A stretch of 64,000 nt of DNA, taken from Candidatus Obscuribacterales bacterium (GTDB lineage: Bacteria; Cyanobacteriota; Vampirovibrionia; Obscuribacterales; Obscuribacteraceae). The notes under the pieces are model-generated. The model was not told the DNA's origin, did no database searches, and was given only the letters and a program-made list of their open reading frames with translations. Position 1 is the stretch's first letter; each line of letters starts with the position of its first letter. The translations under genes and the position numbers were made by a program. Below, in pieces: positions 28,237 to 48,611 of the stretch. The stretch spans positions 1-64,000 of the forward strand of contig JAGVKG010000058.1 in NCBI GenBank assembly GCA_020050685.1, given 5' to 3'.

Positions 28237-30036
28237 TTACTTCTTCTTATACTTTTCCATGCGCTGTTTCAATTGTTTCAATTTGGCCGTGGTCATTTCT
28301 ACATCCTTGCGCTGGGGATTAGAATCATCGGCTGCCTCCAAAAAACACTGCGCATAGTTCAATGCCTTATCAAAATCTGGTTTCTTAACTTTGCCATACA
28401 AAGAGAAAAGCCCGTAGTAAGCATCGGCAAATTGCGGATCGGCAATCAAGGCTTGCTTATAATGATCAAGCGCAACCTCGGGCATCGTACGTGTTGCATC
28501 ACCGAGCTTAGTTTGTCTGGCGGCTTCATTGCGCTGGCTGATAATTTTATCCAGTCCTTGCTCAGCTCTTGGTGCTACTTCCGAAATCTCCTTGGCATAA
28601 GTATAGGCTTGTTGAGCAGCACTAAGATCGCCGTCATTGAAAGCTTGCTCACCCAAAGTCAATAATTCATAAGGATCATCCTTGTGATTATTAATCACCT
28701 GCGAAAGCAATTGCCTGGCTTCGCGGAATTTATTTTGAGACAAAGCCTTTTCGGCTTCCGTCAACTGAATATTTTCTTGCAGATCCTTGGCACCGGAACC
28801 AGAAGTGATCACCTTACCTTTTACCGTTTGTTCAGAAATTACGTTTTGCAATTGATCCATAATTTGCTGCCAGCCGGGCGGATATTGACCCTCTTTGCGC
28901 GCCTTGCGGAAGTAGACCCGCGACAAACCAAGTAATGCCGAAGCATCATCTGGCTTGGCGGCAAGAATAGTTCTGTATTCGGCTTCCGCTACTTCCAATT
29001 TATCTTGACGCAAAGCAAGCTCAGCCAGCTGCGCCCGCAAAAGCATATCGTTCGGCAAAAGCTCAAGCGAATCGTGCAGCTGCGAAATTGCCAATTCGCC
29101 ATCGCCACGTACAGCATAATATTCAGCCATATGCCGATAAGGCTGAGGGTTGTGCGGTTCAAGCCTTATGGACTCTCTCCAGGAAGCAATTGCTGCCGGT
29201 CCGTCGCCTTGCCGGCGATAAATGTCACCCTCAACTTGAAACCAATCGTAAGTACGATACTGCTGCGGAATATTGTGCAGTTCCATGAAAGCATCTTCCG
29301 GCTTACCGTTATGATTGAGAACTATTGATTTTTGTAAATGGGCCGGCTGATAATTCTTGTTCAGCTCCAGTGCCTTTTCAACGTAGGCTTGGCCTTCTTT
29401 GCTTTTCGGATCAATCCTGAGCAAGCATTGGGCTAACAACGTCAAATTCACTGGGTTTTCACTCAGTTCAGCCGCCTTTCTCAACGGTGCTTCTGCCTGT
29501 TCTGGTTCGTCTTGGGCAAGCTTCACCAGTCCCAGCGTCTGCTGCGCAATCAAAATATCAGGATTTGATTTTATTGCCCGCGTGCACAATGTATCCGCCG
29601 CTTCTAAATAAAGATCGCGCTTGGCCGGCGATGCCACGTTTTTGGAATGCACGTAAGACACATAGCCAGCTGCCGCTAAGACATTGGTATTCTCATCATA
29701 TTTTGATTTGGCTTGACGTAAAATCTTTTCTGCCTCAAGCACTTTGCTTGGCCAGGCTTGCTTAGCCAAGGCAACGGCCAAACCAGCATAAGAATCACCA
29801 TTTGCATCTTGATCAAGAAGCGAGCGATAAGCTTCTTCCGCTTCTTTGTATTTGTTTTCCGTCAGCAAACGATCAGCATCTTCAACCGTTTGTGCCGCAA
29901 CTGCAGCCCAAACCACTGAATTGAAATTACCAACACTGGCAAGACACGATGCCACCACCAAACACGAAAACAACTTCACGCCCGCAAGCGATATCTGTCT
30001 TCCTGTTTGTCGTGCTCTTCTTTTGTTCATATCCAT
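28237..30036 (-). CDS. Exported TPR protein
   Basis: 599 residues. A long N-terminal signal with a Lys/Arg-rich start and hydrophobic core (about 20-45) ends near VVWAAVAAQ. At least ten tetratricopeptide repeats then run to the end, for example LTENKYKEAEEAYRSLL, AVRGDGELAISQLHDSLELL and LGDATRTMPEVALDHYKQAL. No catalytic domain is seen. TPR arrays act as protein-protein scaffolds; the location is probably periplasmic. It starts 3 bases after the stop of the TPR gene before it, so both come from one message. Confidence 0.82.
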   Translation of the reverse strand: MDMNKRRARQTGRQISLAGVKLFSCLVVASCLASVGNFNSVVWAAVAAQTVEDADRLLTENKYKEAEEAYRSLLDQDANGDSYAGLAVALAKQAWPSKVLEAEKILRQAKSKYDENTNVLAAAGYVSYVHSKNVASPAKRDLYLEAADTLCTRAIKSNPDILIAQQTLGLVKLAQDEPEQAEAPLRKAAELSENPVNLTLLAQCLLRIDPKSKEGQAYVEKALELNKNYQPAHLQKSIVLNHNGKPEDAFMELHNIPQQYRTYDWFQVEGDIYRRQGDGPAAIASWRESIRLEPHNPQPYRHMAEYYAVRGDGELAISQLHDSLELLPNDMLLRAQLAELALRQDKLEVAEAEYRTILAAKPDDASALLGLSRVYFRKARKEGQYPPGWQQIMDQLQNVISEQTVKGKVITSGSGAKDLQENIQLTEAEKALSQNKFREARQLLSQVINNHKDDPYELLTLGEQAFNDGDLSAAQQAYTYAKEISEVAPRAEQGLDKIISQRNEAARQTKLGDATRTMPEVALDHYKQALIADPQFADAYYGLFSLYGKVKKPDFDKALNYAQCFLEAADDSNPQRKDVEMTTAKLKQLKQRMEKYKKK

Positions 30037-30039
30037 TGC

Positions 30040-31866
30040 CTAGGTCTTTTCCAGTTCTTGGGCTTTCTTCATTTCTCGATCTGCTTCTTTGGTATCACCA
30101 AGAAGACGTAAGACTTCAGCTAGCTTGCGGTGCACCAAAGGCAAGTTGGGTGCAATGCTGGCTGCTTCACGCAATGAAGCAGCAGCAGCCACAGTATTTC
30201 CTTCCTTCATAGATTTATCTGCCGCCTGCAACATCGGTTGAACACGCGATGTGTTTATTTGGCGCAGCGCACCATCGGCTGCCGGATCTTTTAAGAAACT
30301 TGCTTGGCGGTAAGAAACCGCAGCCTCGTCTAACCTGCCCATTTTCTCTTGCGTGTTACCAAGCAAGAGCCAAGCATGCGCATCGTTATGATTTTTATCC
30401 ACTGCCGCCAAAAGATCGGTTTGTGCGCCATTCAAATCACCGGAGGACATTTTGCGTTCAATTTCGGCAAATGCTTGTTGAGCCTTGATTGCCTCTTTCT
30501 TAGCTGCTTCTTCTTTGGCTAAAGCTTCTTCCTTAGCTTTCCTGGCTTTTTCCTGCTTAGCCAGTTCTTCTTCCGATGGTGGCTTCATTTGCTTTTCTTG
30601 CTGGCCCACGGGCACTCCACTGAGCACGGCTATTCTCTGAGCCAAATCAGTATTTACATAAGGATCGATTGAACGAGCCCGGTTGTAGGCAGCCATGGCC
30701 ATATCACGATCGCCTTGCGCTTCCTTGCCCCGTCCATATATATATAGAAGCTCAGCATCACTTTGATTTTCGTGCACAGCGCGTTCTACCTTTTGCACCG
30801 TAGCATTCAATAATTGCGGCGAAACCGTGGGCGACTTAACCACAGAAGTCCAGAAACTTCTCTGGGCTTTTGCCAAACGATAATCTTCCGGATTGATTTT
30901 CCAGGCCTTTTCATATTCGTCTTTGGCGCGGTCGAAATCTCCACCCAACTGATAGGCTCCACCTAACATCAAGTGATTGTCAAAACTCTTTGGTTTGATT
31001 GAAACTGCCTCGCGCGCTGTTTCAATCAAACCTCTAATTGCATTTGAATCGTTCGGATTGATGGTTACTGCCCGGCGAAATTCCGTACCAGCGTTGAGCA
31101 AACGCTTCATGCCAATTTCCATGCGACCTTGATCGCGTGCCGTGTAGGCGTAATTGAGCAAGATATCTCCCAACTCTCGATGGCAATCACCCAGTCCACG
31201 AATGTAATCCGGGTCTTTGGTATCCCAATTTGATACCAGTGCCTTTTTCAATTCTTTGAAGGCCTCGACGTCTTTGCCAGCCTTGTGATACACCGTTCCC
31301 AACGACTTATGACTTGGGCCGTTATCTACCATCTTCACCAATTTGTTGAATTCGACAATTGCTGTTTCCCAATCACCTTTGGTGTCAGCATCATCGCCCA
31401 TGCCGCGCCGCACATTTGGATCGTCAGGATTTTTGCCCATGCGTTTGAGGCAAGCATCGAGATGCTCATCTGCCGGACCATTGTTAGGATCGACATACAA
31501 TGCGCCACGATATTGCTTGCTTGCTTCGTAATACTTTTTCTGATTGGCTAAATAGTCACCATAGCGCAATTGTGCTGCAGACAAATTTGTCCGATAGGTA
31601 GCGTTGGTCGGATCTGCTTTCAAGGCAGTTTCGTGCTCACGAATGGCATCCTGCCATAAACCTTTGTTGCCCAACTCAACGCCGCGGTTATTGTGCTCAT
31701 CTGGCGTTTGCGGCTCCGGCGTTTGCAAATAAACACCACCGCTTGGTCCAGAATGTCTGCGTCTGGCGGCATGACTATCCGGGACACAAAATATCGTGCC
31801 AATAAAAAGACTTGTTGCAATCAGCAACAATAACGTTTTATTTTTTTTGGGTGGTGAGATTGACAT
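30040..31866 (-). CDS. Exported TPR protein heading the minus operon
   Basis: 608 residues with a signal peptide (LLLLIATSLFIGTIFCVPDS, ending before ARRRHSG). TPR repeats occupy about 60-430. A very charged helix of Lys, Glu and Ala (about 440-490, probable coiled coil) follows, then more TPRs to the end. It is the first gene of the minus operon that diverges from the T4SS-like genes, so a shared control region is likely. It may be a periplasmic scaffold for the same machine; direct evidence is lacking. Confidence 0.82.
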   Translation of the reverse strand: MSISPPKKNKTLLLLIATSLFIGTIFCVPDSHAARRRHSGPSGGVYLQTPEPQTPDEHNNRGVELGNKGLWQDAIREHETALKADPTNATYRTNLSAAQLRYGDYLANQKKYYEASKQYRGALYVDPNNGPADEHLDACLKRMGKNPDDPNVRRGMGDDADTKGDWETAIVEFNKLVKMVDNGPSHKSLGTVYHKAGKDVEAFKELKKALVSNWDTKDPDYIRGLGDCHRELGDILLNYAYTARDQGRMEIGMKRLLNAGTEFRRAVTINPNDSNAIRGLIETAREAVSIKPKSFDNHLMLGGAYQLGGDFDRAKDEYEKAWKINPEDYRLAKAQRSFWTSVVKSPTVSPQLLNATVQKVERAVHENQSDAELLYIYGRGKEAQGDRDMAMAAYNRARSIDPYVNTDLAQRIAVLSGVPVGQQEKQMKPPSEEELAKQEKARKAKEEALAKEEAAKKEAIKAQQAFAEIERKMSSGDLNGAQTDLLAAVDKNHNDAHAWLLLGNTQEKMGRLDEAAVSYRQASFLKDPAADGALRQINTSRVQPMLQAADKSMKEGNTVAAAASLREAASIAPNLPLVHRKLAEVLRLLGDTKEADREMKKAQELEKT

Positions 31867-32319
31867 TTTATGCGGCTTGAACCTAGTAAGAAAAAGCGCG
31901 AAGACAAATTTACTATGCCCTCGTAGTCTTCATTCTAGCTATGCCCATTTCTTTTTACTCAGTAGTTTCTATCCGATCCTATATATTCCTCTTTATCTAC
32001 ATATAGCTTTTTGCTTACCTGATCTTCCTTCCAAATTTCCGGCAATACCAAACCACCAAATGAGGAAAAGTGTTATCCACAATACATAATTGCGGCTCGC
32101 TCTCATAAAGCTATTGACAAGCGCCGATAAAAGCATTAAAAATTAGTCACTTCAGTGCCCGATGCCAGTCACGGTGCGGCAAATCCATAACTAAGATCTA
32201 TTTCATTCTGATAGACTGGGAATAGGGTACTGGGCGGGTAGCGCTGCTTTTTAAACCGCTTACTAGACGACCAAACCGCGCGCTTTCCGCTCTTAAAGGG
32301 TTCTCCTTTGGAGGGAACG
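31867..32319. other. 453-bp divergent control region of the T4SS-like locus
   Basis: No gene is supported here. The left part, next to the TPR gene, is T-rich and AT-rich. A good plus-strand promoter lies at 32114-32142. A minus-strand frame at 32169-32381 overlaps the leader, lacks a ribosome site and is rejected. Confidence 0.6.
32114..32142 (+). promoter_or_regulatory. Promoter of the T4SS-like operon
   Basis: A consensus TTGACA (32114-32119), a 17-base spacer and TAAAAA (32137-32142, four of six) form a plausible sigma70 promoter. It would give a leader of about 170 bases before the ATG at 32320, where a strong GGAGGG ribosome site stands. Confidence 0.6.
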
Positions 32320-33438
32320 ATGTTGGAAAATAAGTTTGTCACGAGCGCTTGCGCCTCAGTTAGATTTGGATTTGCCACCAAAGCTCGACTTTCCTTTGGC
32401 TTGGTTTTTGGCGTTGCGGCGCTGATAAATTTTGCTTTGCCTGGCTTAGCTCAACTGCCACCCACAAACATGGGCAAGTTTGTCCATCAACCAGGTGATA
32501 ATCAATATAGCGATGCGACACAACGCGAGCGCCATCCTGTCGCTCCGCCACCGCAGTTTCGCCAAGGAGCACGCATGATGCTGATGCCGGCTGCTCCGGC
32601 GACACCACAAGTAGATGTTTCCATCGAACCAATTGCTTGCGATGAGCCCATTCCGATTGCTGGTTTTCCGCCGCTTCCGGATCGCTTGGAACTGCCTGTG
32701 CAAGAGGGCGGCTCCTGGTCAAGCAAGAAATCATCAGGTGGTAGTGGTGGCACCGGTGGTGACGTGACTTTTCACCAGCATTACGGACATGTACCCATGT
32801 CGACATTTGCTAAACCAAAAACTTTGCCTGGCGCACAACAAGAAGATTCCGAAGCTGGCGAAGGAGAAGAGTCTCAGTCGAGTAGCGCAAGCGGAGGATC
32901 TGGTGGTGGCGTTGGTTATTACAAAGCCCGCACTGCACCAGTGATCACCCGACAAGGATCTAATTCCGGTGGTGGCTCAGTTGGTTACTACAAAGCCGGC
33001 AATGCCCCAGTCATGATTCAACAAAATAACGGTTCAGTCGGTTACTACAAAGCCGGCAGCGTCCAACCAATGACTCAACAAGGTACTGGTAATGTTGGTT
33101 ATTACAAAGCCCGCCCGCAAGGCGGCGATGTCTACAACACAAACAATGCCGGCGGTGGTGCACCACAATACGGTGGAGCATCTGATAAAGATTTGAAAGC
33201 ACTGGGCAAAGAGCCAAAACTTGGTCCGGACGGCAAACCACAAATCGACCCAGCCGACTCCATCACAATCAACCAAAGTACCACCCAAGATCTTTCTTTG
33301 CCGGACGACACGGCAACTTACAAATATTCTGGCCAATCACCAGAGAAAAGTATGGGCAAAGGTGCTGCTAAGAACATGGGCAAAATGCTCAAAGGTCCGC
33401 TTAGCAGGTTTGGCGGAATGGGAGGCATGCACTTTTAA
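32320..33438 (+). CDS. Secreted protein with GYYKA repeats
   Basis: 372 residues from the ATG at 32320, with GGAGGG 5 bases upstream; an upstream TTG lies before that site. The signal region (about 20-45, LSFGLVFGVAALINFALPGLAQ) is followed by a Pro/Gln-rich part. Four copies of (S/N/G)VGYYKA(R/G) then recur every 19-23 residues, separated by Gly/Ser/Gln spacers. The C-terminus is basic and Gly/Met-rich. No known domain was recognised. As first gene of the operon it may be an abundant surface or structural component. Confidence 0.75.
   Translation: MLENKFVTSACASVRFGFATKARLSFGLVFGVAALINFALPGLAQLPPTNMGKFVHQPGDNQYSDATQRERHPVAPPPQFRQGARMMLMPAAPATPQVDVSIEPIACDEPIPIAGFPPLPDRLELPVQEGGSWSSKKSSGGSGGTGGDVTFHQHYGHVPMSTFAKPKTLPGAQQEDSEAGEGEESQSSSASGGSGGGVGYYKARTAPVITRQGSNSGGGSVGYYKAGNAPVMIQQNNGSVGYYKAGSVQPMTQQGTGNVGYYKARPQGGDVYNTNNAGGGAPQYGGASDKDLKALGKEPKLGPDGKPQIDPADSITINQSTTQDLSLPDDTATYKYSGQSPEKSMGKGAAKNMGKMLKGPLSRFGGMGGMHF
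32911..33114 (+). repeat. Four GYYKA-encoding repeats
   Basis: Near-identical 21-base units GTTGGTTAyTACAAAGCCsG begin at 32911, 32980, 33037 and 33094. The spacings are 69, 57 and 57 bases, all multiples of three. The units differ mainly at third positions, so selection on the peptide is likely. Confidence 0.85.
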
Positions 33439-33555
33439 ATATACGGTTTAGATATATAAACTTATAGTTTGCTTTATTTACTACAAAACCGGGATTAATA
33501 CAGAAGGATTAATACAAAAGCACCCAACAAGGATTTGGCTAACAGGACAAAGACA

Positions 33556-34188
33556 ATGAAAAACTTAGCATTATTATCAGTAGCGTTTACCTTGGCTTTC
33601 TTTTCGCCATTGCAGGTGCAAGCGCAAAAGGTCAATACCAAGAAAATCGACAAAGTCGATTGGTTCCATGGCCGCCGTCAGTTTCAAATTATTGACGAGC
33701 GACCGGAAGTGCACGACTTTCGTGAAGCGCCATCTGCGCCACAATCAATGGATTTACCTCCTGGACCGCAAGGTTTCGATGGCTCAGGTGGTTATAACGG
33801 CCCCGGCTCAACAGGCGAAGGCGGACCCGGTGGTGGCACCGCACCAATTCAACTGGGCGGACCGAATCCCGGTTATCGCAATGCACCGTCTGCGTTACAA
33901 TCCTTGCCCAAATCCGGTTTCGGCAGAGAGAGCAATATTCCTGCCCGGGGATTAGGACCAAAAGGTCCATTGCCCGGTGTGACCACAGGTGTCTTAGGCA
34001 AATTAATGACTCCGACTAAGGGTCAAGGCATGAATGCTGGCGCACCGAGAGGCATGTCCGGTAATCGCGCGCGTGCAGCAGCACCAGCACAAAGTTACTC
34101 TGGCGGTTATGGACAAGGCTCCGGCGCAAGTTCTGGTGGTGGACGTACCGAGGGAATAGTTCGGGGCACACTCTTAAGAAGCAAGTAA
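33556..34188 (+). CDS. Secreted Gly/Pro-rich protein, unknown
   Basis: 210 residues from the ATG at 33556; AGGA lies 11 bases upstream, and a TTG at 33535 is possible. It has a clear signal peptide (LALLSVAFTLAFFSPLQVQA, cleavage after AQA). The N-terminal 50 mature residues are charged (KIDKVDWFHGRRQFQIIDER). The rest is Gly, Pro, Ser and Ala-rich and probably disordered. No family is recognised. It stands second in the T4SS-like operon, between the GYYKA protein and the lipoprotein, and is likely an exported partner of them. Confidence 0.72.
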   Translation: MKNLALLSVAFTLAFFSPLQVQAQKVNTKKIDKVDWFHGRRQFQIIDERPEVHDFREAPSAPQSMDLPPGPQGFDGSGGYNGPGSTGEGGPGGGTAPIQLGGPNPGYRNAPSALQSLPKSGFGRESNIPARGLGPKGPLPGVTTGVLGKLMTPTKGQGMNAGAPRGMSGNRARAAAPAQSYSGGYGQGSGASSGGGRTEGIVRGTLLRSK

Positions 34189-34196
34189 CAGGTAAC

Positions 34197-36092
34197 ATGC
34201 GAAAAACGTCCTTTGCCATTCTGACAACAATCACATTATCTGGTTGCGCCCAGCAAAGCATGACCAACGATTCCAATGTGCCGTCGGCCGATGGTTCAGG
34301 AAGTTCAATGTCGGTTTTGGGAAGTTTGCGTCCCAAAACCGATCCGGCGCTTGTAGAAAAGATCAAACAAGAACAACAAATGGCACAAGTTGCCCTGGTA
34401 AAGCAGCAGCAGCAAGCAGAGAGCACCAAGTCGCCGGAACAAGTAGCACGCGATCTTCCCCAAGTTTCCATGGCTCCGATTGCACCACCGGCAGATCAAA
34501 TCGCTCAAACAGCTCAAGCACCGGGTGGCATTGTCACCGGCATGCCTATGGCGATGCCAACTTCATCATCATCGCCATTTCCGTTTTGGCCATTTGCGCA
34601 GAACAATCAATCAAGACCACCGGCCAGCTATGGTGGTTATGGCTCAGTGCCACCACCGCCACCAGAGGCAGTCGGAGGAGGCGGCGGCTCCGGTTTAGTG
34701 CCGCCACCACCCGCGGTATCACTCTCCACGCAAGCTCAAACCATGCCTTATGGCACGATGCAAGATCCATACGCTAACCCGTATGCCAACCCTTACGCCA
34801 ATCCTTATGGCAATCCTTATCAGCAGCAAGCCCCGCAGCAAGTAGCAGCAGTGCCGCCCCAAAAGAGTCCTGGCAGTTTGTTTGGTTCAGGAAGTCGAGC
34901 ACGTTCGGGCGACGACAACAATGCAGGAGAAGAGCGTCCACGCAAGTCGCAAGACTTCGTGCCAATTACGCCAACCGGCATGGAAGCACGCTCTGCTTAT
35001 AAGCAGCGTGACGATTTAAAAGTATTGCTCAAAGGAGCTCTCGCCGTTTCACCATTGCAAGGTTTGGCCAACCAGGATGAAAGAATTGCCCAGTCCTTAG
35101 CTGGTCTGGATGTGGCTCTACCGCAAGAGTCTTCTAAAGGCAGTTTCAACATTTCTCAAAGACAACTCGAAATTCTTTTTCATTCTGCTAATGTCGACAA
35201 ACGCATTGCTCCTCAAGTAAAGAAATTGCAAGCAGACATTGCTCAAGTCTATTACCGTTATTTGTTCTCATACAACAAGTTTGCTTTGGCGCACCAAACA
35301 CTGGCAGCTCGCAAACAGCAAGCAGAAGTTGCCGACAGCCAAGCCGAACAACAAAGAGCAGCTGCCGATATTGCTCAAGCCCAAGACAATTCCGAACAAG
35401 CAAAAGAAGAAATCAAATCAGCCCAAGTGGAATTAGCATCAGTAGCAGGAGCGCAAGCAGCCAAAGCAATCATCACTCGTATTTCCGGTGCCGCACCACA
35501 AATGGATGCTTTGAACGCTGCAGAAAATAACACAGTCGCCCAGCAACAATCAGCTGGTGGACATTCATCCGGTTTTTTGGGTTCCATTCTTGGCTTCAGC
35601 AAATCGCACGATTCACAAGACACGAGCGCCCAAGTAGCCAGTGCAAAACCAGAGAAAAAGAAGAAGGAAAACAAGGCAAAGAAAGAAGAAAGCAAACCTC
35701 CAGCGCAAGACTTGGCAATGGCACCGGAGAGCAAACCAGTTGAACTGGCTGCCAAGCCGGCCGCATCAATTGCGCCACCACGCCCTCGCTCAGGGAGCGA
35801 ATCAATTTCCTTCATTTTGAAAGATGTGTCGGTAACGGCACGCAAATCGATATTGAAAGTTGCGGTACGCAATCAAGGTGCCTCAAGTTTTTCATTTAAC
35901 CCAGATTCAATTTCAATTTCGGAAGGCAATCACAGATTATCGGAGGCAAGCTTGCGCGCGGACTTTGAGACCAATTGCATTCAACCGAATCAAGAGGTAG
36001 TTGGCACCATTACTATCTATGGTCATCCCTGGAATGAAAGACTATCCGTACTTTTGCCTAGTGGTGACCGCAACATTCAATTAAGACGTTAG
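34197..36092 (+). CDS. Large lipoprotein with NPYA repeats and coiled coil
   Basis: 631 residues. The short signal ILTTITLSGC ends in a good lipobox (L-S-G-C), so the product is lipid-anchored. A long low-complexity part (Pro, Gln, Gly) contains PYANPYANPYANPYGNPY at about 191-208. A helical region (about 255-430, Ala/Gln/Glu-rich, likely coiled coil) and a Lys-rich linker follow. A C-terminal beta domain (about 530-631, starting SISFILKDVSVTARKSILKV) ends the protein. Position and lipid anchor are compatible with a VirB7-like or outer-membrane role, but no sequence family was recognised. AGG lies 7 bases before the ATG. Confidence 0.75.
   Translation: MRKTSFAILTTITLSGCAQQSMTNDSNVPSADGSGSSMSVLGSLRPKTDPALVEKIKQEQQMAQVALVKQQQQAESTKSPEQVARDLPQVSMAPIAPPADQIAQTAQAPGGIVTGMPMAMPTSSSSPFPFWPFAQNNQSRPPASYGGYGSVPPPPPEAVGGGGGSGLVPPPPAVSLSTQAQTMPYGTMQDPYANPYANPYANPYGNPYQQQAPQQVAAVPPQKSPGSLFGSGSRARSGDDNNAGEERPRKSQDFVPITPTGMEARSAYKQRDDLKVLLKGALAVSPLQGLANQDERIAQSLAGLDVALPQESSKGSFNISQRQLEILFHSANVDKRIAPQVKKLQADIAQVYYRYLFSYNKFALAHQTLAARKQQAEVADSQAEQQRAAADIAQAQDNSEQAKEEIKSAQVELASVAGAQAAKAIITRISGAAPQMDALNAAENNTVAQQQSAGGHSSGFLGSILGFSKSHDSQDTSAQVASAKPEKKKKENKAKKEESKPPAQDLAMAPESKPVELAAKPAASIAPPRPRSGSESISFILKDVSVTARKSILKVAVRNQGASSFSFNPDSISISEGNHRLSEASLRADFETNCIQPNQEVVGTITIYGHPWNERLSVLLPSGDRNIQLRR
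34767..34820 (+). repeat. Short tandem repeat encoding NPYA units
   Basis: Four and a half 12-base units coding for Asn-Pro-Tyr-(Ala/Gly), with third-position variation between copies. It lies within the lipoprotein gene. Confidence 0.8.
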
Positions 36093-36133: not shown

Positions 36134-38779
36134 ATGAAACCCAACCACCCCTTACTAGACTTAAGAGCACAAACGCTGCAAATTGCACGTTGGGTTTCCG
36201 CACGTCTGATTATGATCATCGCCTTGGCTATGGCAACTTTGTTTTTACCATCGCAGGCCCAGGCTCAGTCACAAGACTCACCGCTTGGTTCTGGTGGTGA
36301 ATCATCCGGTATTGTGCAAGACTCAAACGAACGCCATCTTTGGGATATCCGTAAGGATTACTACTTACGTTTTCCCTTTGCAAAATTAGCCGGACCATTC
36401 CACCCGAAGGAGAACCCCCAAGGAAACGACATTCTTGTAGTTGCCGGAATTCAGCAGCAAGAGAAGGGTGCAAAGGTTGAAATTAAGAAATCAGAAGGTC
36501 CTGGTTTTGGCAAAGTGCTGGCTTATGATATCTGCCACGTACATTGTGATGGTGTGGGACATTGGCTGCCTGGAGCCGAAATTTATCACCAACCACAAAT
36601 CCCTTGTCCGTTGCCGGCTTGCTACTTTCAGCCAAAGCTTTGGGCATTCGATGTGCCTGCCACCAAACGCGACAACGAATTATTCCTTACAGCACTCGGA
36701 ACTTATGGCGGCAAACCACAAGTCAATTTGGCCGGCGTAAATGGCTTGCCATTATCTGATACACAGTTTCAGATTATCGATCGGGAAAACAATCAACGCT
36801 TCTTAGAGCTCCTCTATGACCCTGAGCGTTTTGTCTGGATGTCCACATCGGTTGGTCAAATTCAAGGAACCGCTCTGGCTAATTCAGAAGCCGGTGCTGC
36901 TGAAAAATCTTTCAACAATGCATATGATCGCGTGCGCAATGAAAACCTGATCAACATGGCCAATGAAACTGCGCTTGTGCCAACTTCTGCCCAGAACCCC
37001 AAGAAGACCATTCCACAGGCCTGCTGGATGGTGATGAAGATGTATAAGGAATTATACCTGCCGATGGCACTGCTCTTCTTGCTTCCTGGTGCCGTGCTCA
37101 CGCAAGTCCAGAGCTTTGTGCACAAAGGCATGCTTGCCGGAGAAGGCAAGATGAATATGCCATTTGAAGGCATACTGCGTGCCATGATTGCTATATTTTT
37201 GATTCCTGCTACACAAATGATTGTCAGCTATTCCATTGACATTGGCAACACTATGGCGAATTCAGTTGCGCAATGGATAGTGCAAGAAACTATTTTTGAT
37301 TGGGCACATGAGCAAAGCTACAATTGCCCGCAATCAAATATCATCAACTACATTCCGCCACCGGAAACAGTTCGAACTGAATGGGGCGTGACGCAAGAAA
37401 AGCCGTCACCGGGAAGCGGTGAACTGGGTAAAGGCTTAGAAGCATCCGAAGACGATGCTGTACAAGAAAAGCAACTCTTCCTCTCGCAAGTTGTGCAGCT
37501 TGCCTTCAATGCTGCGATTCATGGATTTAGTTATGCCGTGATCGTTCTTACCGGCTTCCAACTTGTCTACATGTGCTATCTCTTTTTACTTGGGCCATTA
37601 TCCGCTTGTTTCTTTGCCTGGCCTGCGCTGGAAGGTGGCGCGCATTTATTCCGAGACGTGTTCAGCAAGTGGCTCAATGCTGTAATTACAATTTCGCTTT
37701 GGCGATTTTATTGGTGCGTGATTTTAGCAATCATGACCGTACGTCTGCAATGGCTTGCAGACATGGGAATGAAGCATACAACATTGACTTTCGAAATGAT
37801 GGTCTTTACCTGTTTTCTTGGCCTGATGCTCTATGTGCCATTTGCACCATTTCAGTTTGATCCCGGTGGTGCAGTTACTGCTGTTTTGCAGCAGGGCGCG
37901 TCAATGGGCAGTGGCATGAGCCAAGGAATGACCCAGGCCGGCAAAGACATGGGAATACCGGAGTCGACAATGAAAACCGTTACCGGACCAATGGACCAAG
38001 CAGTGGCCCAGGTTGGTCAAGTTGGCAGTGCCATGGTACACGACACACAATTACAGATGGCCCAAAAAGGCTTAATGCCTATGGATGCAGCCAGTGGTGG
38101 TCATGGTGCTGGTGCTGGACAAGGCGCTGGCGGTCACGGTGGCGGTCATGGTGGCGGCGGAAGTTCTGGTGGCGGCGGAGGCGGAACAGCCGTTTCAGAC
38201 TCGCAAGTTAGCACCACAGGTGGTGGCGGATCTTCGGCCGGCGGACCACCTCCTATGACTGCCAATCAACAAATGGCTATATTGTCGCAGCCAATGACGC
38301 CGCAAACACAAACGCTTCTTGGTGGCATGGCTCAAATGGGTGTGCAAAACATGAGCATGCCTCCAGCTGCTGGACAATCACCAATGCCACTTACGCCTCA
38401 AGCACCAATAGCATCCGGCATGAGCGGCGGCGGCAACCAATCAACATTCATTCCGACCAATGCTGCTATGCCGATGAGTCAAATTGCTCAAGCGATTCCA
38501 GCCATGATGCAGAATCCGCAACTACAACAAGCAATGAGCATTGCACCGCTTGGCACATTATCGCAAGTTGTTTCTGCCAGCCTGAACGTCAGTTCTTCTG
38601 CCCCACAAACCGGCGCGCCAAGTCCAGGTCCATCGCAGGCATCTAGTTCGCCACAACCACCGACGCCATCGCAACCGCAGCAAGCACCACCACCTGCACC
38701 CGGTCCCGGAAATATTCCCCCGCCACCACCTCCTCCTCCGCCGCCACCACCGCCTTCCGGACCATCAAAATCAGCTTAA
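36134..38779 (+). CDS. VirB6/TrbL-like polytopic membrane protein A
   Basis: 881 residues. A signal-like helix (about 20-45) is followed by a soluble domain (about 60-290) with YYLRFPFAKLAGPF and SDTQFQIIDRENNQRFLELL. Membrane helices at about 315-335, 345-375, 460-500, 510-535 and 545-580 form the VirB6/TrbL-like core (LLFLLPGAVLTQVQSF, AMIAIFLIPATQMIVSYSID). The last about 300 residues are Gly-, Gln-, Met- and Pro-rich, ending in a run of prolines. AAGGAA precedes the ATG. It is paralogous to the next gene through the soluble and membrane parts. VirB6 proteins form the inner-membrane channel base of T4SS; the assignment rests on topology and on VirB3/VirB4 neighbours. Confidence 0.68.
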   Translation: MKPNHPLLDLRAQTLQIARWVSARLIMIIALAMATLFLPSQAQAQSQDSPLGSGGESSGIVQDSNERHLWDIRKDYYLRFPFAKLAGPFHPKENPQGNDILVVAGIQQQEKGAKVEIKKSEGPGFGKVLAYDICHVHCDGVGHWLPGAEIYHQPQIPCPLPACYFQPKLWAFDVPATKRDNELFLTALGTYGGKPQVNLAGVNGLPLSDTQFQIIDRENNQRFLELLYDPERFVWMSTSVGQIQGTALANSEAGAAEKSFNNAYDRVRNENLINMANETALVPTSAQNPKKTIPQACWMVMKMYKELYLPMALLFLLPGAVLTQVQSFVHKGMLAGEGKMNMPFEGILRAMIAIFLIPATQMIVSYSIDIGNTMANSVAQWIVQETIFDWAHEQSYNCPQSNIINYIPPPETVRTEWGVTQEKPSPGSGELGKGLEASEDDAVQEKQLFLSQVVQLAFNAAIHGFSYAVIVLTGFQLVYMCYLFLLGPLSACFFAWPALEGGAHLFRDVFSKWLNAVITISLWRFYWCVILAIMTVRLQWLADMGMKHTTLTFEMMVFTCFLGLMLYVPFAPFQFDPGGAVTAVLQQGASMGSGMSQGMTQAGKDMGIPESTMKTVTGPMDQAVAQVGQVGSAMVHDTQLQMAQKGLMPMDAASGGHGAGAGQGAGGHGGGHGGGGSSGGGGGGTAVSDSQVSTTGGGGSSAGGPPPMTANQQMAILSQPMTPQTQTLLGGMAQMGVQNMSMPPAAGQSPMPLTPQAPIASGMSGGGNQSTFIPTNAAMPMSQIAQAIPAMMQNPQLQQAMSIAPLGTLSQVVSASLNVSSSAPQTGAPSPGPSQASSSPQPPTPSQPQQAPPPAPGPGNIPPPPPPPPPPPPPSGPSKSA

Positions 38780-38818
38780 CTACCTTTGCCATCATCGTCC
38801 CTCATGAGGTCTAATAAA

Positions 38819-41800
38819 ATGTTCGCCACACCACAGATCACCAAATTCACCGTAAAAATGCTGCTTGCATTGATGTTGGTTGCGGCGCTACCTCAACTTA
38901 CTTTCGCCCAAAAAGGCGGTGGACCAGCTATGCCGGCAGGCGGCGCACCAGGAGCCTCTTCCTCATCCAAAGGTGGTAGCTCGGGAAGCACCACAGGCGG
39001 TGACAACGCAGCCCACGACGACTCCAATCCATCAACTCCTTCAAAAATTCGCGATAACTATTTCTTGCGTTTTCCCGTAGCTAAAGAACATGGTCCTTAT
39101 GCACCGGACAAGGGTTGGACAGGCCATGACATATTGATTGAAGTTGCCGGTGAGGGCAACGACAAGGGCAAGAAGATGAAGAAGAAAAAATCAGACGGCC
39201 CTGGCACGATTATTCACTGCAAATCCGGTCCAGTGCAGGTGTGGCCTCTTTTGGTGCCCTGCGCAGTATCTAATGTACCAACAAAGCGCGACGAAGGCAT
39301 CATGGATGACCTCTTCCAAACCTTCGGTTATCCGGTGTCGGACACTCAATTCCAGGTTATCCAACGTTACAACCAGAACCGTTTACTAGAACAACTCTAC
39401 GATCCGGAAAAATTAGACTGGCTCAGCACTTCGATCGGTGCTGTACAAGCCACCACCGCCGCAAACTCCGCAGCCAACTTGGAGCGCAACCAATCAGCCG
39501 GTGCAATTGAGTACGCCCAACAATATCTCTACAATTTTACTTCTGATGGTGGCAATCGCTGGAATAATATCCGCGACAAGCTGTTTGTACCAATTGCCAT
39601 CTTGCTCTTGTTACCAGGAGCAGTTGCAGCACAAGTAAAAGTAATCATCCAACAAGGTTCTCCTGTTTTGGGAGAGGCAGTCAATCCATTTGAAGGCATC
39701 ATTCGTTCCATAATTGCCGTCTTTATGATTCCTGCCACCTGGTTTGTGCTCAACTATGGCATAGACATTTCCAATTCAATTGCCTTGTCAATTAACGACA
39801 AGTACAAACAAGCATTTCACGGCGACATGTATAAGGATGCGCAATGTGCCCATGCTCGTGCGTTCCAAATCCGCGACCCCAATTCCAATGAAAACGCTAT
39901 TACTCCTCCTGATTATGCAGGTGGTGGTGGTGGCAACGACCCGAAGTCTTGGAGCGACGTAGAAAAACATAGTTTCGACATCACGACAGAAGATCCTTGT
40001 AAACAATGGGGATCGCAAGGTGGTGGCGGAAACCAAGACAGAAAAGACGAGCACGAAACCATGCTTAACTCTGCACAGCGCGCGGCAATCAACGCAGCCA
40101 ATGCTGCGCTTTGCGGAGCCTGGGCAGTTATGTGCGCCTTCCAAACTTGCTACCTATTATATCTGTTCTGCATGGGACCAATTGTGGCAGCCTTATGGGT
40201 CTGGCCAATTGACTCGTTCCGCAAAGCACTGGGCTCTTGGATCGAAGGTGTTGTAACCATTTGCTTTTGGAGTCTATTTTGGAATACAACCATTTTGCTC
40301 ATGGCTTGCTTCAAAGGCGTAGCTGACACGGGAACCGTGATCATGACTGCTTTGAATTATCTCGCTAACATTTGTGTGGTCTATGCCTTTAAGTTTGCCG
40401 ATCTCGCCGGATCTGCCGGACAGCAAGCTGCTGGTGCAGCAAAAGGTGCTGCCAGCAGTGGAGCAGGCAGAGCCGGAGCTGGTGCCATGGCCGGACACGC
40501 TGGTGCTGGTGCCGGTGCCGGAAGAGGCGGTGGCGGACACGGAACCGCAACAGCCGGTGGTGGTCATCCTGCAGGAGCTGCCGCCGGTGGCGGCGCAGGC
40601 GCTACAGCTGGTCAAGCAGCAGCCATGGCAGTGCATGGAGCCGTCATGGGAGGCGGTGGTGGCATGTCAGCCGGACAAGTACTTGGTGGCACAGGTGGTG
40701 CCACATCAGCAGACCACGTACCTGGAGGTTCAGGTGGTGGCACAGGAATGGGAACCGGTGGTTCATCCGCAGGCCCACTTGGCGCTGGCGGACTTGGTGG
40801 TGGTCTTAGCGGATCACAGCCTGGCGGTGGAGGCACCACAGGTGGTGGCACAACAGACAGCAGCGCTTCCGCAGCAATGGGCGGCGGAGGTGCCGGCGGC
40901 TCTCTTGCCGGAGGCATGTCCAATCTCGCATCAAACGTTCCTGGTGGCGCTCACGGTGGCGTCGGTGGTGGTCATGCCACGCAGGGCGGAGGCGGCATAG
41001 GTAGCGCCGTCGGTGGTGCCTTGGGTGGCGGTGGTGCCGGAGCACCCGGAGCGCCAGGAGCTGGCATCGGTGGTGCTGGCGGAGCTGGTGGCATCGGTGG
41101 TTCCGGTGCAACAGGCGCAACTGGAGCAACCGGACAATTATCTGGATCTTTATCGAGTGACGCCAAGGGACTAGGTTCAATACCTGGCGACATCAGCGGT
41201 GCAAAAACCTCATTGGGTGATACCAATGTTTCAGGTGGACCGCCAGGAGCTATCAGCGCCGGAGCACCCGGTGCACCAGGCGGTCTTGCCGATGCCTCTT
41301 CCGGAGCGCGCCCGAACATACCTGGTGTTACAGATTTGAATGCACCACTCGGTCAAGGAACAGCACAAGGACTGCCTACAGGACAAATTCCTGGTCAACA
41401 AAATCTTGGAGTGACAGGCGCTGAAACAGCATTTATTGCTGGAGCCGTGGGAGGGTTATTTGCGGCTTCACAAATTCCTGGTGGAGTACCACAGCCTGCA
41501 CCAGAACAAGTGGCTTCAGCGCCACCACCTCCTCCGCCACCGGCTCAACAAGCACCGGCACCACCAGTGGAGGCCGCGCCGATAGTACAACAGCCTGTAC
41601 CGCAGCAACAGACAGTCCAGTCTGCACCACAAACTGTTGTAAATGAAACACAGATTGCCCAAAGTTCACCACAAGTGCAATACACGCAATCACAAGCACC
41701 AGCTCCTCCTCCAGTGGAAGTGAGGTACGATACTGCATACAATGCACCGGCGCCGACTTATCCGTCGGCACCACCGCCTCCTCCACCGCAAGCACCTCCG

Positions 41801-42211
41801 CCTCCGGCTCCGGCACCAGATTATCAATATGGTGCAAATTATCAGGCGGCACCACCGGCTCCACAACAACCGGCCCCGCCGCAACCTCAGGCTCCGCCGC
41901 AGGTCGCCAGTGCTCCGCTTGTTGAGCAGCAACAAGGCCCGCCAATTACTCCAGCTCAAGCAGCAGCTGCTGCTGCCGGAACTGTATTTGTTGCCAAAGC
42001 AGCACCAGAGCAAGTGCCTGCCCCGAGTCCATCGCAGCCAGCACAAGAGCAAGCACAAGAAGTTGCCTATAGTGGTCCAGCGAGATCAATAGACGCATTT
42101 AGCGCAATGCGGGCTAGCGCCCAGAAAAAGGGCAACAAGCTCACGGCTCAGGAGAAAAAAGAACTGGAAGAAGCCGAAGCATACGCGCGATCACAAGGTT
42201 GGATATCATAG
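38819..42211 (+). CDS. VirB6/TrbL-like polytopic membrane protein B with Gly-rich and Pro-rich tails
   Basis: About 1130 residues from the ATG at 38819, with GAGG 10 bases upstream; an in-frame ATG at 38804 is possible. The signal peptide ends at LTFAQ. The soluble domain (YFLRFPVAKEHGPY, SDTQFQVIQRYNQNRLLEQL) and membrane helices (ILLLLPGAVAAQVKVI, SIIAVFMIPATWFVLNYGID) mirror protein A. A Gly/Ala-rich region of about 300 residues follows, partly with collagen-like G-x-y triplets. A Pro/Gln/Ala-rich region comes next, then a small helical C-terminus (IDAFSAMRASAQKKGNKLTA). The C-terminal tail may reach across the periplasm. Same functional call and caveats as protein A. Confidence 0.68.
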   Translation: MFATPQITKFTVKMLLALMLVAALPQLTFAQKGGGPAMPAGGAPGASSSSKGGSSGSTTGGDNAAHDDSNPSTPSKIRDNYFLRFPVAKEHGPYAPDKGWTGHDILIEVAGEGNDKGKKMKKKKSDGPGTIIHCKSGPVQVWPLLVPCAVSNVPTKRDEGIMDDLFQTFGYPVSDTQFQVIQRYNQNRLLEQLYDPEKLDWLSTSIGAVQATTAANSAANLERNQSAGAIEYAQQYLYNFTSDGGNRWNNIRDKLFVPIAILLLLPGAVAAQVKVIIQQGSPVLGEAVNPFEGIIRSIIAVFMIPATWFVLNYGIDISNSIALSINDKYKQAFHGDMYKDAQCAHARAFQIRDPNSNENAITPPDYAGGGGGNDPKSWSDVEKHSFDITTEDPCKQWGSQGGGGNQDRKDEHETMLNSAQRAAINAANAALCGAWAVMCAFQTCYLLYLFCMGPIVAALWVWPIDSFRKALGSWIEGVVTICFWSLFWNTTILLMACFKGVADTGTVIMTALNYLANICVVYAFKFADLAGSAGQQAAGAAKGAASSGAGRAGAGAMAGHAGAGAGAGRGGGGHGTATAGGGHPAGAAAGGGAGATAGQAAAMAVHGAVMGGGGGMSAGQVLGGTGGATSADHVPGGSGGGTGMGTGGSSAGPLGAGGLGGGLSGSQPGGGGTTGGGTTDSSASAAMGGGGAGGSLAGGMSNLASNVPGGAHGGVGGGHATQGGGGIGSAVGGALGGGGAGAPGAPGAGIGGAGGAGGIGGSGATGATGATGQLSGSLSSDAKGLGSIPGDISGAKTSLGDTNVSGGPPGAISAGAPGAPGGLADASSGARPNIPGVTDLNAPLGQGTAQGLPTGQIPGQQNLGVTGAETAFIAGAVGGLFAASQIPGGVPQPAPEQVASAPPPPPPPAQQAPAPPVEAAPIVQQPVPQQQTVQSAPQTVVNETQIAQSSPQVQYTQSQAPAPPPVEVRYDTAYNAPAPTYPSAPPPPPPQAPPPPAPAPDYQYGANYQAAPPAPQQPAPPQPQAPPQVASAPLVEQQQGPPITPAQAAAAAAGTVFVAKAAPEQVPAPSPSQPAQEQAQEVAYSGPARSIDAFSAMRASAQKKGNKLTAQEKKELEEAEAYARSQGWIS

Positions 42212-42260: not shown

Positions 42261-42908
42261 ATGCACGTAGCAGACATAGGAGTAAAATGCCCTGTTTGTG
42301 GCGTCAAATTTAGTTCGAAGCAGTTGCCGGTAATTGTTGACACCAATCGCCGCAACTCAGAACTCCGTCAAGACTTCGAAGGAAAGATTCCTCAATTCGA
42401 GCAATATGCAGTATGCACTTGTCCTTCCTGTGGTTATGCCGACTGGGCGCATCGATATGAAGTGACCAACGAAACTTCCGTCTTGACCGCGCGCAAATTG
42501 ACACCACACATTCAATTTCGCTCGGCTGCGATTGCTGCCGAAAAAGAAGGACGCGACTTTTATTCCATCGGCATCTTTTACCTTTATGCTGCCTGGTGCG
42601 CAGACGACAGTTATGCGGTTCAACAAGCAAAAGAATATCGGAAACTGGCAGTGGATTTCTTGAAGAAGTCTCTCGTCGACGGCTCTTGCCCAAAAAACCA
42701 GAAGGAAGAAATCCAATATCTGGTCGGTGAGATCATGCGCCGCGCCGGTGACTTTGAACAATCCAAAGACCACTTCCGTCAGGTCATGCCGCGTCTTTCA
42801 TCCAAATTCGCCCTCATGGCGCGAAAGTTAATGAAACTTGCCGAATCTCAGGATTCTAATCCCATAGAATTTGAATGGGGAGAGAAAACAAGCGAGGTCC
42901 AAAAGTAG
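42261..42908 (+). CDS. DUF2225 zinc-ribbon protein
   Basis: 215 residues with two Cys pairs near the start, CPVC (about 10-13) and CPSC (about 54-57), typical of the DUF2225 zinc-binding fold. A helical, TPR-like C-terminal half follows (DFYSIGIFYLYAAWCADD, AGDFEQSKDHFRQVM). It has no signal peptide, so it is cytoplasmic. GGAGAG lies 4 bases before the ATG. Its stop is immediately followed by the VirB3-like start (TAG ATG), tying it to the secretion genes. DUF2225 function is not established. Confidence 0.8.
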   Translation: MHVADIGVKCPVCGVKFSSKQLPVIVDTNRRNSELRQDFEGKIPQFEQYAVCTCPSCGYADWAHRYEVTNETSVLTARKLTPHIQFRSAAIAAEKEGRDFYSIGIFYLYAAWCADDSYAVQQAKEYRKLAVDFLKKSLVDGSCPKNQKEEIQYLVGEIMRRAGDFEQSKDHFRQVMPRLSSKFALMARKLMKLAESQDSNPIEFEWGEKTSEVQK

Positions 42909-43280
42909 ATGTCACAGATTCATCGTGTGATTATCTTGAATAAGCCACTAAAAATCCGCGGGAAGACTCCTTTCCAGTGGGTACTTTTGGTTGGTTCGGC
43001 CGCGCTTGGATTTTTCATCGCCTCCAAAGTTCCGAAGGAATGGCAATTTAATCACATCCCAGCTGGATTTTTTGTCTTCGGCACAGTATTTGGCTTGGCC
43101 CTAATTTTTGTCACCGCCTCGGAAATGAAACCGCTTCAGTGGTGGAGAAATGTCATTCTCTATGGGTGCAAACTAATGCCCTTGATGTTCTTTCCTCATT
43201 CAGAGCCCGCCAGGGAATATATAGATGAGAATATGATTGAAAGTAAGAAGGAAAAAGTGTTGGTTGAATTTGAGCAATAA
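42909..43280 (+). CDS. VirB3/TrbD-like small membrane protein
   Basis: 123 residues. An N-terminal segment, VIILNKPLKIRGKTPFQW, is followed by two membrane helices (about 24-42 and 50-70) and a cytoplasmic tail. This matches the size and topology of VirB3, which in T4SS operons sits directly before virB4 and works with it at the inner membrane. Here too the VirB4 gene follows after 11 bases. Sequence similarity is short, so the call leans on context. Confidence 0.65.
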   Translation: MSQIHRVIILNKPLKIRGKTPFQWVLLVGSAALGFFIASKVPKEWQFNHIPAGFFVFGTVFGLALIFVTASEMKPLQWWRNVILYGCKLMPLMFFPHSEPAREYIDENMIESKKEKVLVEFEQ

Positions 43281-43291
43281 GGAGGATTTGG

Positions 43292-45964
43292 ATGACCGAC
43301 ACAATGAAACCATCAAACCAGACAGATGCTTATCCAAATTCCCCTAAGCAAGGAAATGGACAGGCAAGCAAGCCAAATCCGCTTGCTAGTTTTTTGCCGT
43401 CACCAATTCGGGAAATGATTTTGGGACCGCAAGACGATCTTTCCGGTCCGCCGCCAGACAAACGGGTGGACACAAGCTGGCAAGATATTTGTTTCCTGCA
43501 TGCAATTCCTGGCGATGACAACGACGAAGGTCTAGTCATATTAGCTGATGGTTCTATGCGCAAATACATTGGCTGCAAGGGCGTAAACGCATTGCTGTTC
43601 GATGAAGCTGAGCGCGAACAACTGGCTCGTCACTTTGCCCAACTAGCAAATTCAGCAGAAACCGATTTACAAGTCATCGTCAAGTCTCGCCACTTATCTG
43701 TCGATGAGTACCTTGAGCATTATCAGTCTGTGATTAAGACGGACAATGAATATCTCAAATGGTATGCAGAATGTACCGATCGTTGGTTTCGTCAAGTACA
43801 AGATTTGTCCTATATTCCCCAGCGTGATTTTTACGTTGTCGTAAGTTACCAACCGCCTGACTCAAAGAGTTTGACAAAACCTTGGTCCGGCAGACGATCA
43901 ATTCAAAAGCACGAGGAGTTTCTTGACATTCTCGATCGTTACGTAAGAACGTCGATCGAGCAATTGCGTCAGTCCAATTTGCGCCCTCAAGTTCTTTCGC
44001 GTCGCGAAGTCAGAAATTTGATCTATGAAGATCTCAACCCAACCTTATCGCATGCAGAGCCAGAAGCACCACCATCACGATTGGATGTGTCTGAATCATC
44101 GGCACTTGCTTGTTCTGCACTAAAAGTCACCAATGAACATTTATGGTTGGACGGCAAATATGTCGCAACACAGTATTTATCTCAGCCTCCGCATGAATCG
44201 TGGATGGGGTGGCTTGTCGATCTTTTGACTTTGAATATGGAATATACAATGTCCATATTCATTCACAATTGCGATCAAGATTCTGTGCGCAAGAAATTGC
44301 AGATGAATTATCGCATGGGCGTTGTGTCCAGTACGCAATTGGCCACTCCAGACCTTGAAGGAATTGAATCCACTCGTTCTGCCGCTTCTGCAATCCAAGA
44401 ATTTTTGCGCTCATCGAACAAAGCATTTGATCTCAGCTTATACATCACGACTTATGCAGAAACGCAAGAGAAGCTGGCAAATTATGCTGATGAAATCCGC
44501 CGAGTCTTCAAGAACAAGGGTGCAATTTTAGATCGCGGGCAAATGCTGCAATTAGATTGCTGGCAATCAACGCTTCCAGTTGGTGTCGACAAATTAGCAA
44601 TTGTCCATCAGGTTATGTCACCGATTGTCGGAACGTTTTGGCCATTCTTCACTGCCCAATGTGGAACACCGGATGGTGTGCCATTTGGATTTGCCCTTGC
44701 ATCGCGCGAGCCTGTCTTGCTCAATCCTTTTTATAGAGGCGCGGGAAAAGAAGCTAACAACATGTTTGTTGTAGGCACCACCGGTGCTGGTAAATCATTT
44801 GCCGTGTCGATGATGATTCTGCGCTTGCTGCCCCTTGGTGTACGCTTTGTGCTTATAGATAAGACAGTGGATAAATTTGGAGCCTATCGATTCATCACTG
44901 AAATTCTTGGACCAGAGCTTTGTAATTACATTGACCTTGGACCGAGCTCGGGTTACATTCTCAATCCGTTTGATCTCGGACCAGAAGACAAACCAGGCGA
45001 ACCATCGGCGGACAAAATAAGCAACTTGCTTTCGCTTCTGGACATTATGTTGGCACCAGAAGGCCGAGATGAATTGAGCGTTGAGGAAAAGTCACTTCTC
45101 GACGGATTGATTCGGGTTGCCTACATGGAAGCTGGCTTCCAGGGATCTGTGCCAACAATGTCTGATCTGGCGCGCGTTACTGCTCAAGCAGCTCAGTCGG
45201 AAACGGATCCTGTTCAGCGTGAACGCCTAGGTGCATTTGCCCGCGGTCTTTCACTTTTCACAAGACAAGGCGCGTTCGGTGGACTGGTTGATGGTCTGAC
45301 AAATATTGATACCGAAAAACTATTCATGGTATTTGATACACGTGAAGTCAACGAGCCGCGTTTAGAAAGAATCGCAGTCTTTATCCTCACAGAATTCATT
45401 CGCTGTAAAGCTGCCGAATGCAAAGCTCGTTCAATTCGATTTGCTGCTATCATCGACGAAGCGGCAACACTCATGCGCTTCAGAGCAGGCGCACGACTGC
45501 TCGACGACCTATCAAGACGCGCTCGCCACTACGGTATGATGTTGGTGGCAATTACTCAGCAATTGAAAGACTTCTTCAAGCAAGCCGAGCAAGCCGATTC
45601 CGTTATAAAAAACTCACACATGAAGATCCTTCTCCGACAAGATCCAAGCGACTTGCGATTGCTCAAAGATACACTTCGTCTTACCGATGCAGAAGTTGCC
45701 GCGGTTGAAAACTTTGGTCACTCCGAAGAAAAGCGCAGGCAAAGTCAATGTCTTTTCATTGTTGGTGGCATTCACGGCACCATCGCGCTGCCACCAAGTC
45801 CAATGGATTATTGGATTTGTACATCAGAACCAATTCGCGATATTCCTTTGCGCTTAAATACAATTCGCGAGATCATGGAAAAGAATCCCGGTTGCACCTA
45901 CACGCAAGCCTGCCGGCAAGCAGTCTACCTCCTCGGCCAACAATGGGAACGCGGCTTGCTGTAG
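43292..45964 (+). CDS. virB4: VirB4/TraC-type T4SS ATPase
   Basis: 890 residues. A Pro/Asn-rich start is followed by the CagE/TrbE/VirB N-terminal domain (about 65-440). The P-loop ATPase domain carries Walker A VVGTTGAGKSF (about 493-503) and Walker B FAAIIDEAATL (about 716-726). The downstream RRARHYGMMLVAITQQLKDF and LLRQDPSDLRLL are characteristic of VirB4. GGAGG at 8 bases precedes the ATG. VirB4 energises T4SS assembly and substrate passage at the inner membrane. It is the last gene of the plus operon and the firmest evidence that the locus is T4SS-related. Confidence 0.92.
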   Translation: MTDTMKPSNQTDAYPNSPKQGNGQASKPNPLASFLPSPIREMILGPQDDLSGPPPDKRVDTSWQDICFLHAIPGDDNDEGLVILADGSMRKYIGCKGVNALLFDEAEREQLARHFAQLANSAETDLQVIVKSRHLSVDEYLEHYQSVIKTDNEYLKWYAECTDRWFRQVQDLSYIPQRDFYVVVSYQPPDSKSLTKPWSGRRSIQKHEEFLDILDRYVRTSIEQLRQSNLRPQVLSRREVRNLIYEDLNPTLSHAEPEAPPSRLDVSESSALACSALKVTNEHLWLDGKYVATQYLSQPPHESWMGWLVDLLTLNMEYTMSIFIHNCDQDSVRKKLQMNYRMGVVSSTQLATPDLEGIESTRSAASAIQEFLRSSNKAFDLSLYITTYAETQEKLANYADEIRRVFKNKGAILDRGQMLQLDCWQSTLPVGVDKLAIVHQVMSPIVGTFWPFFTAQCGTPDGVPFGFALASREPVLLNPFYRGAGKEANNMFVVGTTGAGKSFAVSMMILRLLPLGVRFVLIDKTVDKFGAYRFITEILGPELCNYIDLGPSSGYILNPFDLGPEDKPGEPSADKISNLLSLLDIMLAPEGRDELSVEEKSLLDGLIRVAYMEAGFQGSVPTMSDLARVTAQAAQSETDPVQRERLGAFARGLSLFTRQGAFGGLVDGLTNIDTEKLFMVFDTREVNEPRLERIAVFILTEFIRCKAAECKARSIRFAAIIDEAATLMRFRAGARLLDDLSRRARHYGMMLVAITQQLKDFFKQAEQADSVIKNSHMKILLRQDPSDLRLLKDTLRLTDAEVAAVENFGHSEEKRRQSQCLFIVGGIHGTIALPPSPMDYWICTSEPIRDIPLRLNTIREIMEKNPGCTYTQACRQAVYLLGQQWERGLL

Positions 45965-48610: not shown

Positions 48611-48611
48611 C

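Follow-up and report, generated by a model that had tools for sequence, protein, structure and literature searches.

Two consecutive genes upstream of a VirB4-type ATPase in Candidatus Obscuribacterales encode large membrane proteins, here called A and B, each ending in a long low-complexity tail, which raises the question of whether they are VirB6-type components of a secretion machine and on which side of the membrane their tails lie. The window analyzed here is a stretch of 64,000 nucleotides (contig JAGVKG010000058.1), the relevant features of which are collected in Table 1. A first-pass annotation, made from this DNA alone, had described A and B as tandem VirB6-like paralogs with different tails. 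The wider picture, comprising cassettes away from the main locus and a third long-tailed family with a VirD4-like link, is invisible from one window and needed the genomes of relatives.

Table 1. Genes of the A-B locus, with positions in the window and the basis of each assignment
Feature	Coordinates	Strand	Length	Basis
Second divergent TPR protein adjoining the operon	28237..30036	-		synteny in relatives, TPR models
Divergent TPR protein adjoining the operon	30040..31866	-		synteny in relatives, TPR models
c1, conserved, Gly-rich	32308..33438	+		synteny; no Pfam match
c2, small secreted low-complexity protein	33535..34188	+		synteny; low complexity 57%
c3, predicted lipoprotein	34197..36092	+		lipobox-like LSGCAQ, conservation, synteny
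Protein A, VirB6-like	36134..38779	+	881 aa	open reading frame
Protein B, VirB6-like	38786..42211	+	1141 aa	open reading frame
DUF2225 zinc-finger/TPR-like protein	42261..42908	+		PF09986, E 3.6e-15
VirB3/PrgI-like small membrane protein	42909..43280	+	123 aa	directly 5' of VirB4, hydrophobic segments
VirB4-type ATPase	43292..45964	+	890 aa	NF045971, E 2.3e-53; TraC; VirB4_CagE

A and B are paralogs. Their BLASTP alignment extends from the soluble domain as far as the last helices (E = 4e-54, 160/507 identical, 32%), and both contain the motifs FPxAK, SDTQFQxI, LLPGAV and F[LM]IPAT, confirming the common soluble domain and the LLPGAV and FxIPAT helices claimed at first pass. When segments were set against 500 shuffles, the soluble domain scored 262 (shuffled 30 ± 5, best shuffle 55), the first helix pair 173 (26 ± 5, best 57) and the later helices 143 (31 ± 5, best 52), so that all three stand above every shuffle. 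The anticipated multi-helix core is likewise present, with hydropathy of the window's A and B and averages over 46 A and 63 B proteins placing about five or more hydrophobic helices there. In A, an N-terminal export signal and a soluble domain precede a core at residues ~300-575 and a tail at 590-881; in B, the same elements lead to a core at ~260-540, a Gly-rich tail (556-890), a Pro/Gln-rich stretch (891-1090) and a charged end (1091-1141). Export signals were found in 45/45 A and 61/62 B proteins. The start codon of B is ambiguous: besides TTG at 38786, the ATG codons at 38804 and 38819 are candidates.

The duplication that produced the pair is ancient. A maximum-likelihood tree built from 100 cores separates A from B, with 100% SH-aLRT support for either group. 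Because A and B are both present in the sister family, the duplication predates the split of the two families. The proposed tandem duplication therefore holds as to paralogy, while a recent origin is rejected by the separate, fully supported groups. In counts that rest on draft assemblies and on the matches listed, the B family occurs in at least 50/146 relatives, all from the window's family or the sister family, and the A family in at least 50/289 class genomes, again only in these two families; among the matches listed for these 289 genomes, the other class members tested lack the A/B family. No relatives of B were found in viral contigs, plasmids or phages. One MAG contig labelled Chloroflexi (L001) carries an A nearly identical to that of G021 and adjoins a family member in the tree; this label is probably a binning error.

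Many relatives possess additional copies of A and B that lie apart from VirB4, VirB3 and c1-c3, arranged as orphan cassettes of the form A-B, A-B-B, A-B-B-B or repeats of these. G012 has at least 8 B and at least 8 A loci on matching contigs and one close copy of VirB4, and G030 has at least 7 A and at least 7 B loci, also on matching contigs; in the window's own genome, no orphan cassette appears among the matches listed, the only A and B loci there being the two of the main locus. Cassettes usually run A then B on one strand, with divergent arrangements in G012:C41 and G030:C24, and orphan A and orphan B group with their own kind in the tree. Distances among A proteins correlate with those among their partner B proteins (Mantel r 0.77 for all pairs, 0.87 for orphans and 0.76 for canonical loci; 0/2000 permutations as high). 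Co-divergence at the canonical loci is partly species history, whereas the co-divergence of orphan partners indicates that the orphan cassette travels as a unit. Around the orphan cassettes lie otherwise mostly unrelated genes, for histidine kinases, response regulators, TPR proteins and metabolism; a cyclophilin-domain protein adjoins the cassette of L068.

At the main locus, the genes form a chromosomal operon in the order c1-c2-c3-A-B-DUF2225-VirB3-like-VirB4, which is retained in about 25 loci of relatives, including contigs named Candidatus Obscuribacterales and Candidatus Melainabacteria, with the DUF2225 gene absent from some. The VirB4 of the locus has a close copy in nearly every relative with the family, normally single and at 71-82% identity; the main locus is thus vertical chromosomal heritage, and a mobile-element origin is rejected on the same grounds. 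A few genomes carry a second copy at about 60% (e.g., G023, G028, G033). The VirB3/PrgI-like protein is conserved in relatives and has no Pfam match, and the DUF2225 protein is probably cytoplasmic. The predicted lipoprotein c3, which combines a coiled coil with a conserved domain at its C terminus, is a candidate outer-membrane or periplasmic part. No VirB8, VirB9, VirB10 or VirB11 was established, which counts against a T4SS-like reading.

Several further genes surround the operon. A membrane protein encoded at 26303-27766 on the minus strand weakly resembles the TrbI/VirB10 C-domain (E 6e-4), and a comparable match recurs near the operon in many relatives; equally strong TrbI/VirB10 matches occur elsewhere, and the protein is not counted as a machine part. 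Downstream of VirB4, two large polytopic proteins on the minus strand (46130-48646 and 48612-51068) have similar N-terminal halves and look like tandem paralogs. Relatives have two small conserved genes after VirB4 (L037:2991-3937; also L042 and L066), and none was seen there in the window.

Nearly every genome contains a second locus, encoding a further polytopic protein with a long tail (C, the third such family), a DUF2225-like protein at the equivalent position, a 112-aa VirB3-like protein, a VirB4 about 31% identical to that of the main locus, a 219-aa protein and a VirD4-like ATPase matching PF02534; the main locus has no VirD4-like protein. C is present in at least 47/146 relatives, with open frames of up to about 2500 codons, and profile comparison links it to A (P 92-94%, E 8e-7 to 9e-8). 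From these matching gene sets it follows that VirB6-like, DUF2225, VirB3-like and VirB4 genes constitute a module present twice, with a coupling protein in one locus only.

Whether A and B belong to VirB6 is harder to establish, and we call them VirB6-like on position, architecture and weak profile matches, membership being unproven. They adjoin the VirB3-like and VirB4 genes, as VirB6 does, and carry a large hydrophilic domain beyond the core, as extended VirB6 proteins do; the VirB6-like order ahead of VirB3-like and VirB4 is that of monoderm conjugation loci, in which the gene before PrgI weakly matches TrbL. At the level of sequence, the VirB6-like assignment of the first pass fared less well than it did on position and multi-helix core. 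PF04610 (TrbL/VirB6) matches neither A nor B at E <= 1, nor anything in their own genome, the Pfam TrbL/VirB6 model does not match the window genome's C, and no VirB6/TrbL model reaches its cut-off for A or B. The PF04610 test is a weak one, however, with monoderm VirB6 candidates from Enterococcus and Lacticaseibacillus themselves falling below the Pfam cut-off. A search for TrbL reference proteins from the same phylum gave only three weak matches in 292 genomes. NF045889 matches the window's B only (E 0.0047, 16 bits against a cut-off of 70), and this B is also weakly similar to TIGR03782 (TraJ; E 0.025). Profiles of A and B compared directly with three monoderm VirB6 candidates gave no significant match. 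Searched against 211 plasmid reading frames, the C profile placed the Enterococcus candidate at the top (E 0.004), aligning a helix region around a common A-P-I motif. An AlphaFold2 model of the B core (11 sequences) reached a pLDDT of 35, too low to inform on the fold, and sequence searches against solved structures, run with alignments of A/B and of c3, returned nothing credible.

The tails differ in composition, in agreement with the first description of A as Gly/Met/Pro-rich and of B as Gly-rich, then Pro/Gln-rich, with a helical end. In A, residues 591-720 are 28% Gly and residues 721-881 are 25% Pro, with 7-9% Met; in B, residues 556-890 are 37% Gly, residues 891-1090 are 28% Pro and 17% Gln, and the charged residues 1091-1141 are probably helical. 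Aligned with each other, the tails scored 197 against a shuffled 129 ± 13 (best shuffle 174), and they have a common Gly-then-Pro order with no alignable homologous block. B and A contain the longest low-complexity runs among the genes ranked (580 and 255 aa), against a median low-complexity fraction of 0 over 50 genes of the window; c2 and c3 are likewise rich in low complexity. A family-model search of 25 long-tailed proteins found no convincing known domain in the tails.

Tail length varies widely among relatives. At canonical loci, tail length runs from roughly 100 to 500 aa in A and from about 585 to 1574 aa in B; because each tail was counted from where the BLAST match stops, all tail lengths are approximate. 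Among orphans, most A tails are short, and whole B proteins measure between 449 and 1873 aa. In the sister family, a B lacking a tail precedes one that has it. At the very C terminus, many B tails carry a short tip with Trp, such as NIWGS, SSWWS, GWIS or EWTI (e.g., L061, L067, L069, L057, L058 and the window's B). Tails diverge about 3-7 times faster than cores, with a dN of 0.19-0.41 in close pairs versus 0.06-0.12 for cores; synonymous changes are near saturation, so dN/dS values are rough. Aligned codon by codon, tails show whole-codon gaps and third positions that are least conserved, first and second positions being kept. Because of this codon-position pattern and the whole-codon indels, the tails are clearly translated and constrained.

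Taking these observations together, we favor, with a probability of roughly 0.6, a reading in which A and B are a diverged VirB6-type pair in the inner-membrane translocon of a chromosomal T4SS-like machine, their tails more likely pointing outward. The clear VirB4, the profile link between A and C, and the position of C beside a second VirB4 and a VirD4-like protein speak for such a hetero-VirB6 translocon, for which we also counted the FKBP-type prolyl isomerase lipoproteins that adjoin three related orphan cassettes (L062:10915, L063:9744 and L075:6505). From their pairing and co-divergence we infer that A and B sit in one complex, probably as a mixed or stacked oligomer that would act jointly. 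The adjacent VirB4 would power the machine and the VirB3-like protein would anchor it. Given the export signals, the soluble domains at the N termini would lie beyond the inner membrane, and the helix core would form the membrane and stalk part. The tails, predicted to be disordered, more likely lie outside the cytoplasm, where they might line or fill a passage through the envelope or reach the surface.

The main alternative accepts A and B as VirB6-like and turns the tails inward, as disordered arms in the cytoplasm that would collect substrates or partner proteins (VirB4, the DUF2225 protein) at the base of the machine. Helix counts compatible with five or six membrane passes make a cytoplasmic tail possible, five passes with the tail inside would agree with the positive charges on either side of the later helices, a DUF2225/TPR protein is conserved beside a long-tailed VirB6-like gene in both loci, and the classical Agrobacterium VirB6 model has a cytoplasmic C terminus (model cited in PMC7648143). 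However, in some orphan B proteins, which have no C-terminal tail, a block of low complexity follows the signal peptide immediately and precedes the core, an arrangement that places the block outside the cytoplasm. The tails of Anaplasma VirB6-3 and VirB6-4 are surface exposed (PMC7648143), and R388 VirB6 is largely periplasmic, forming a pentamer there, with two membrane helices near its N terminus (PMC12857230). We regard inward tails as unlikely; the near-universal export signals and the N-terminal low-complexity variants favor the outward orientation, to which we lean with some reserve, the charge pattern near the last helices allowing the opposite.

It is distinctly improbable that A and B are a lineage-specific polytopic family merely adjacent to VirB4 and forming another export or DNA-uptake pore. 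The absence of a VirB6 family model above cut-off and the many A-B cassettes far from any VirB4 would fit such a pore, but the stable operon with VirB3-like and VirB4 genes in about 25 relatives and the link to C, itself beside a VirB4 and a VirD4-like protein, argue against it. A reading of the orphan cassettes and the tails as copies that are selfish or in decay and now serve no purpose is very improbable, since nearly all are open over 450-2200 codons and their partners remain paired and co-diverge, despite mostly unrelated flanking genes and a stop inside at least one orphan A (G005:C9).

Within the VirB6-type translocon reading, orphan A-B cassettes could supply alternative tail-bearing subunits to one engine, a working hypothesis of subunit exchange. 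Extended to a modular machine, in which one conserved VirB4 engine serves interchangeable hetero-VirB6 cassettes, each with its own fast-evolving tail, it is doubtful and offered tentatively. If true, swapping a two-gene cassette would change channel specificity or surface contact.

Among known systems, the T4SS of Vampirovibrio chlorellavorus comes from the same class (Melainabacteria), but is Agrobacterium-like (T-type) and located on plasmids and a contig (PMC4451040). The Patescibacteria T4SS is, like the present one, chromosomal, of VirB4/PrgI/VirB6 type and outside classical conjugation, while the parts of its description considered here make no mention of paired or amplified VirB6 (PMC12102498). 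Monoderm MPF-FATA/FA systems (CD1110-type conjugative plasmids) agree in the VirB6-PrgI-VirB4 gene order and provide the best VirB4 model, yet the plasmids compared (n=3) each have one VirB6 candidate of ~280 aa, with no pair, no DUF2225 and no comparable soluble domain. Extended VirB6 with unstructured domains is known in MPF-FA, and the role of the extra domains is not known according to the same review (PMC12857230). On Thermus aquaticus plasmid p61, a 630-aa polytopic protein with an Ala/Gly/Pro-rich tail near VirB4 (L094:11034-12926) is a possible extended VirB6.

The extended VirB6 proteins of Rickettsiales (Anaplasma VirB6-1 to -4, Rickettsia VirB6a-e) resemble A and B, by description only, in that several VirB6-type genes stand in tandem beside virB3 and virB4, their tails are long and either hydrophilic or repetitive, the duplications are ancestral, and the T4SS is split over several loci (PMC7648143, PMC2653234), with T4SS genes of Rickettsia and relatives lying in separate clusters (PMC2653234). 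They differ in that the Rickettsia copies match PF04610 (PMC2653234), unlike A and B, which form a fixed pair with Gly/Pro/Gln-rich tails and scattered orphan pairs varying in number between relatives. The first pass supposed that such a likeness would be either convergent or anciently shared. A search of open papers in PubMed Central turned up no report of the A-B arrangement in the Obscuribacterales lineage; extended VirB6 is already known, and amplified paired cassettes appear to be new. Extension in three VirB6-like families (A, B and C), at either end of the core and at up to eight loci per genome, amounts to many natural replicates, which make VirB6 hetero-oligomers and tails as swappable specificity parts testable questions, and these replicates sit in uncultured relatives of cyanobacteria rather than in obligate intracellular pathogens.
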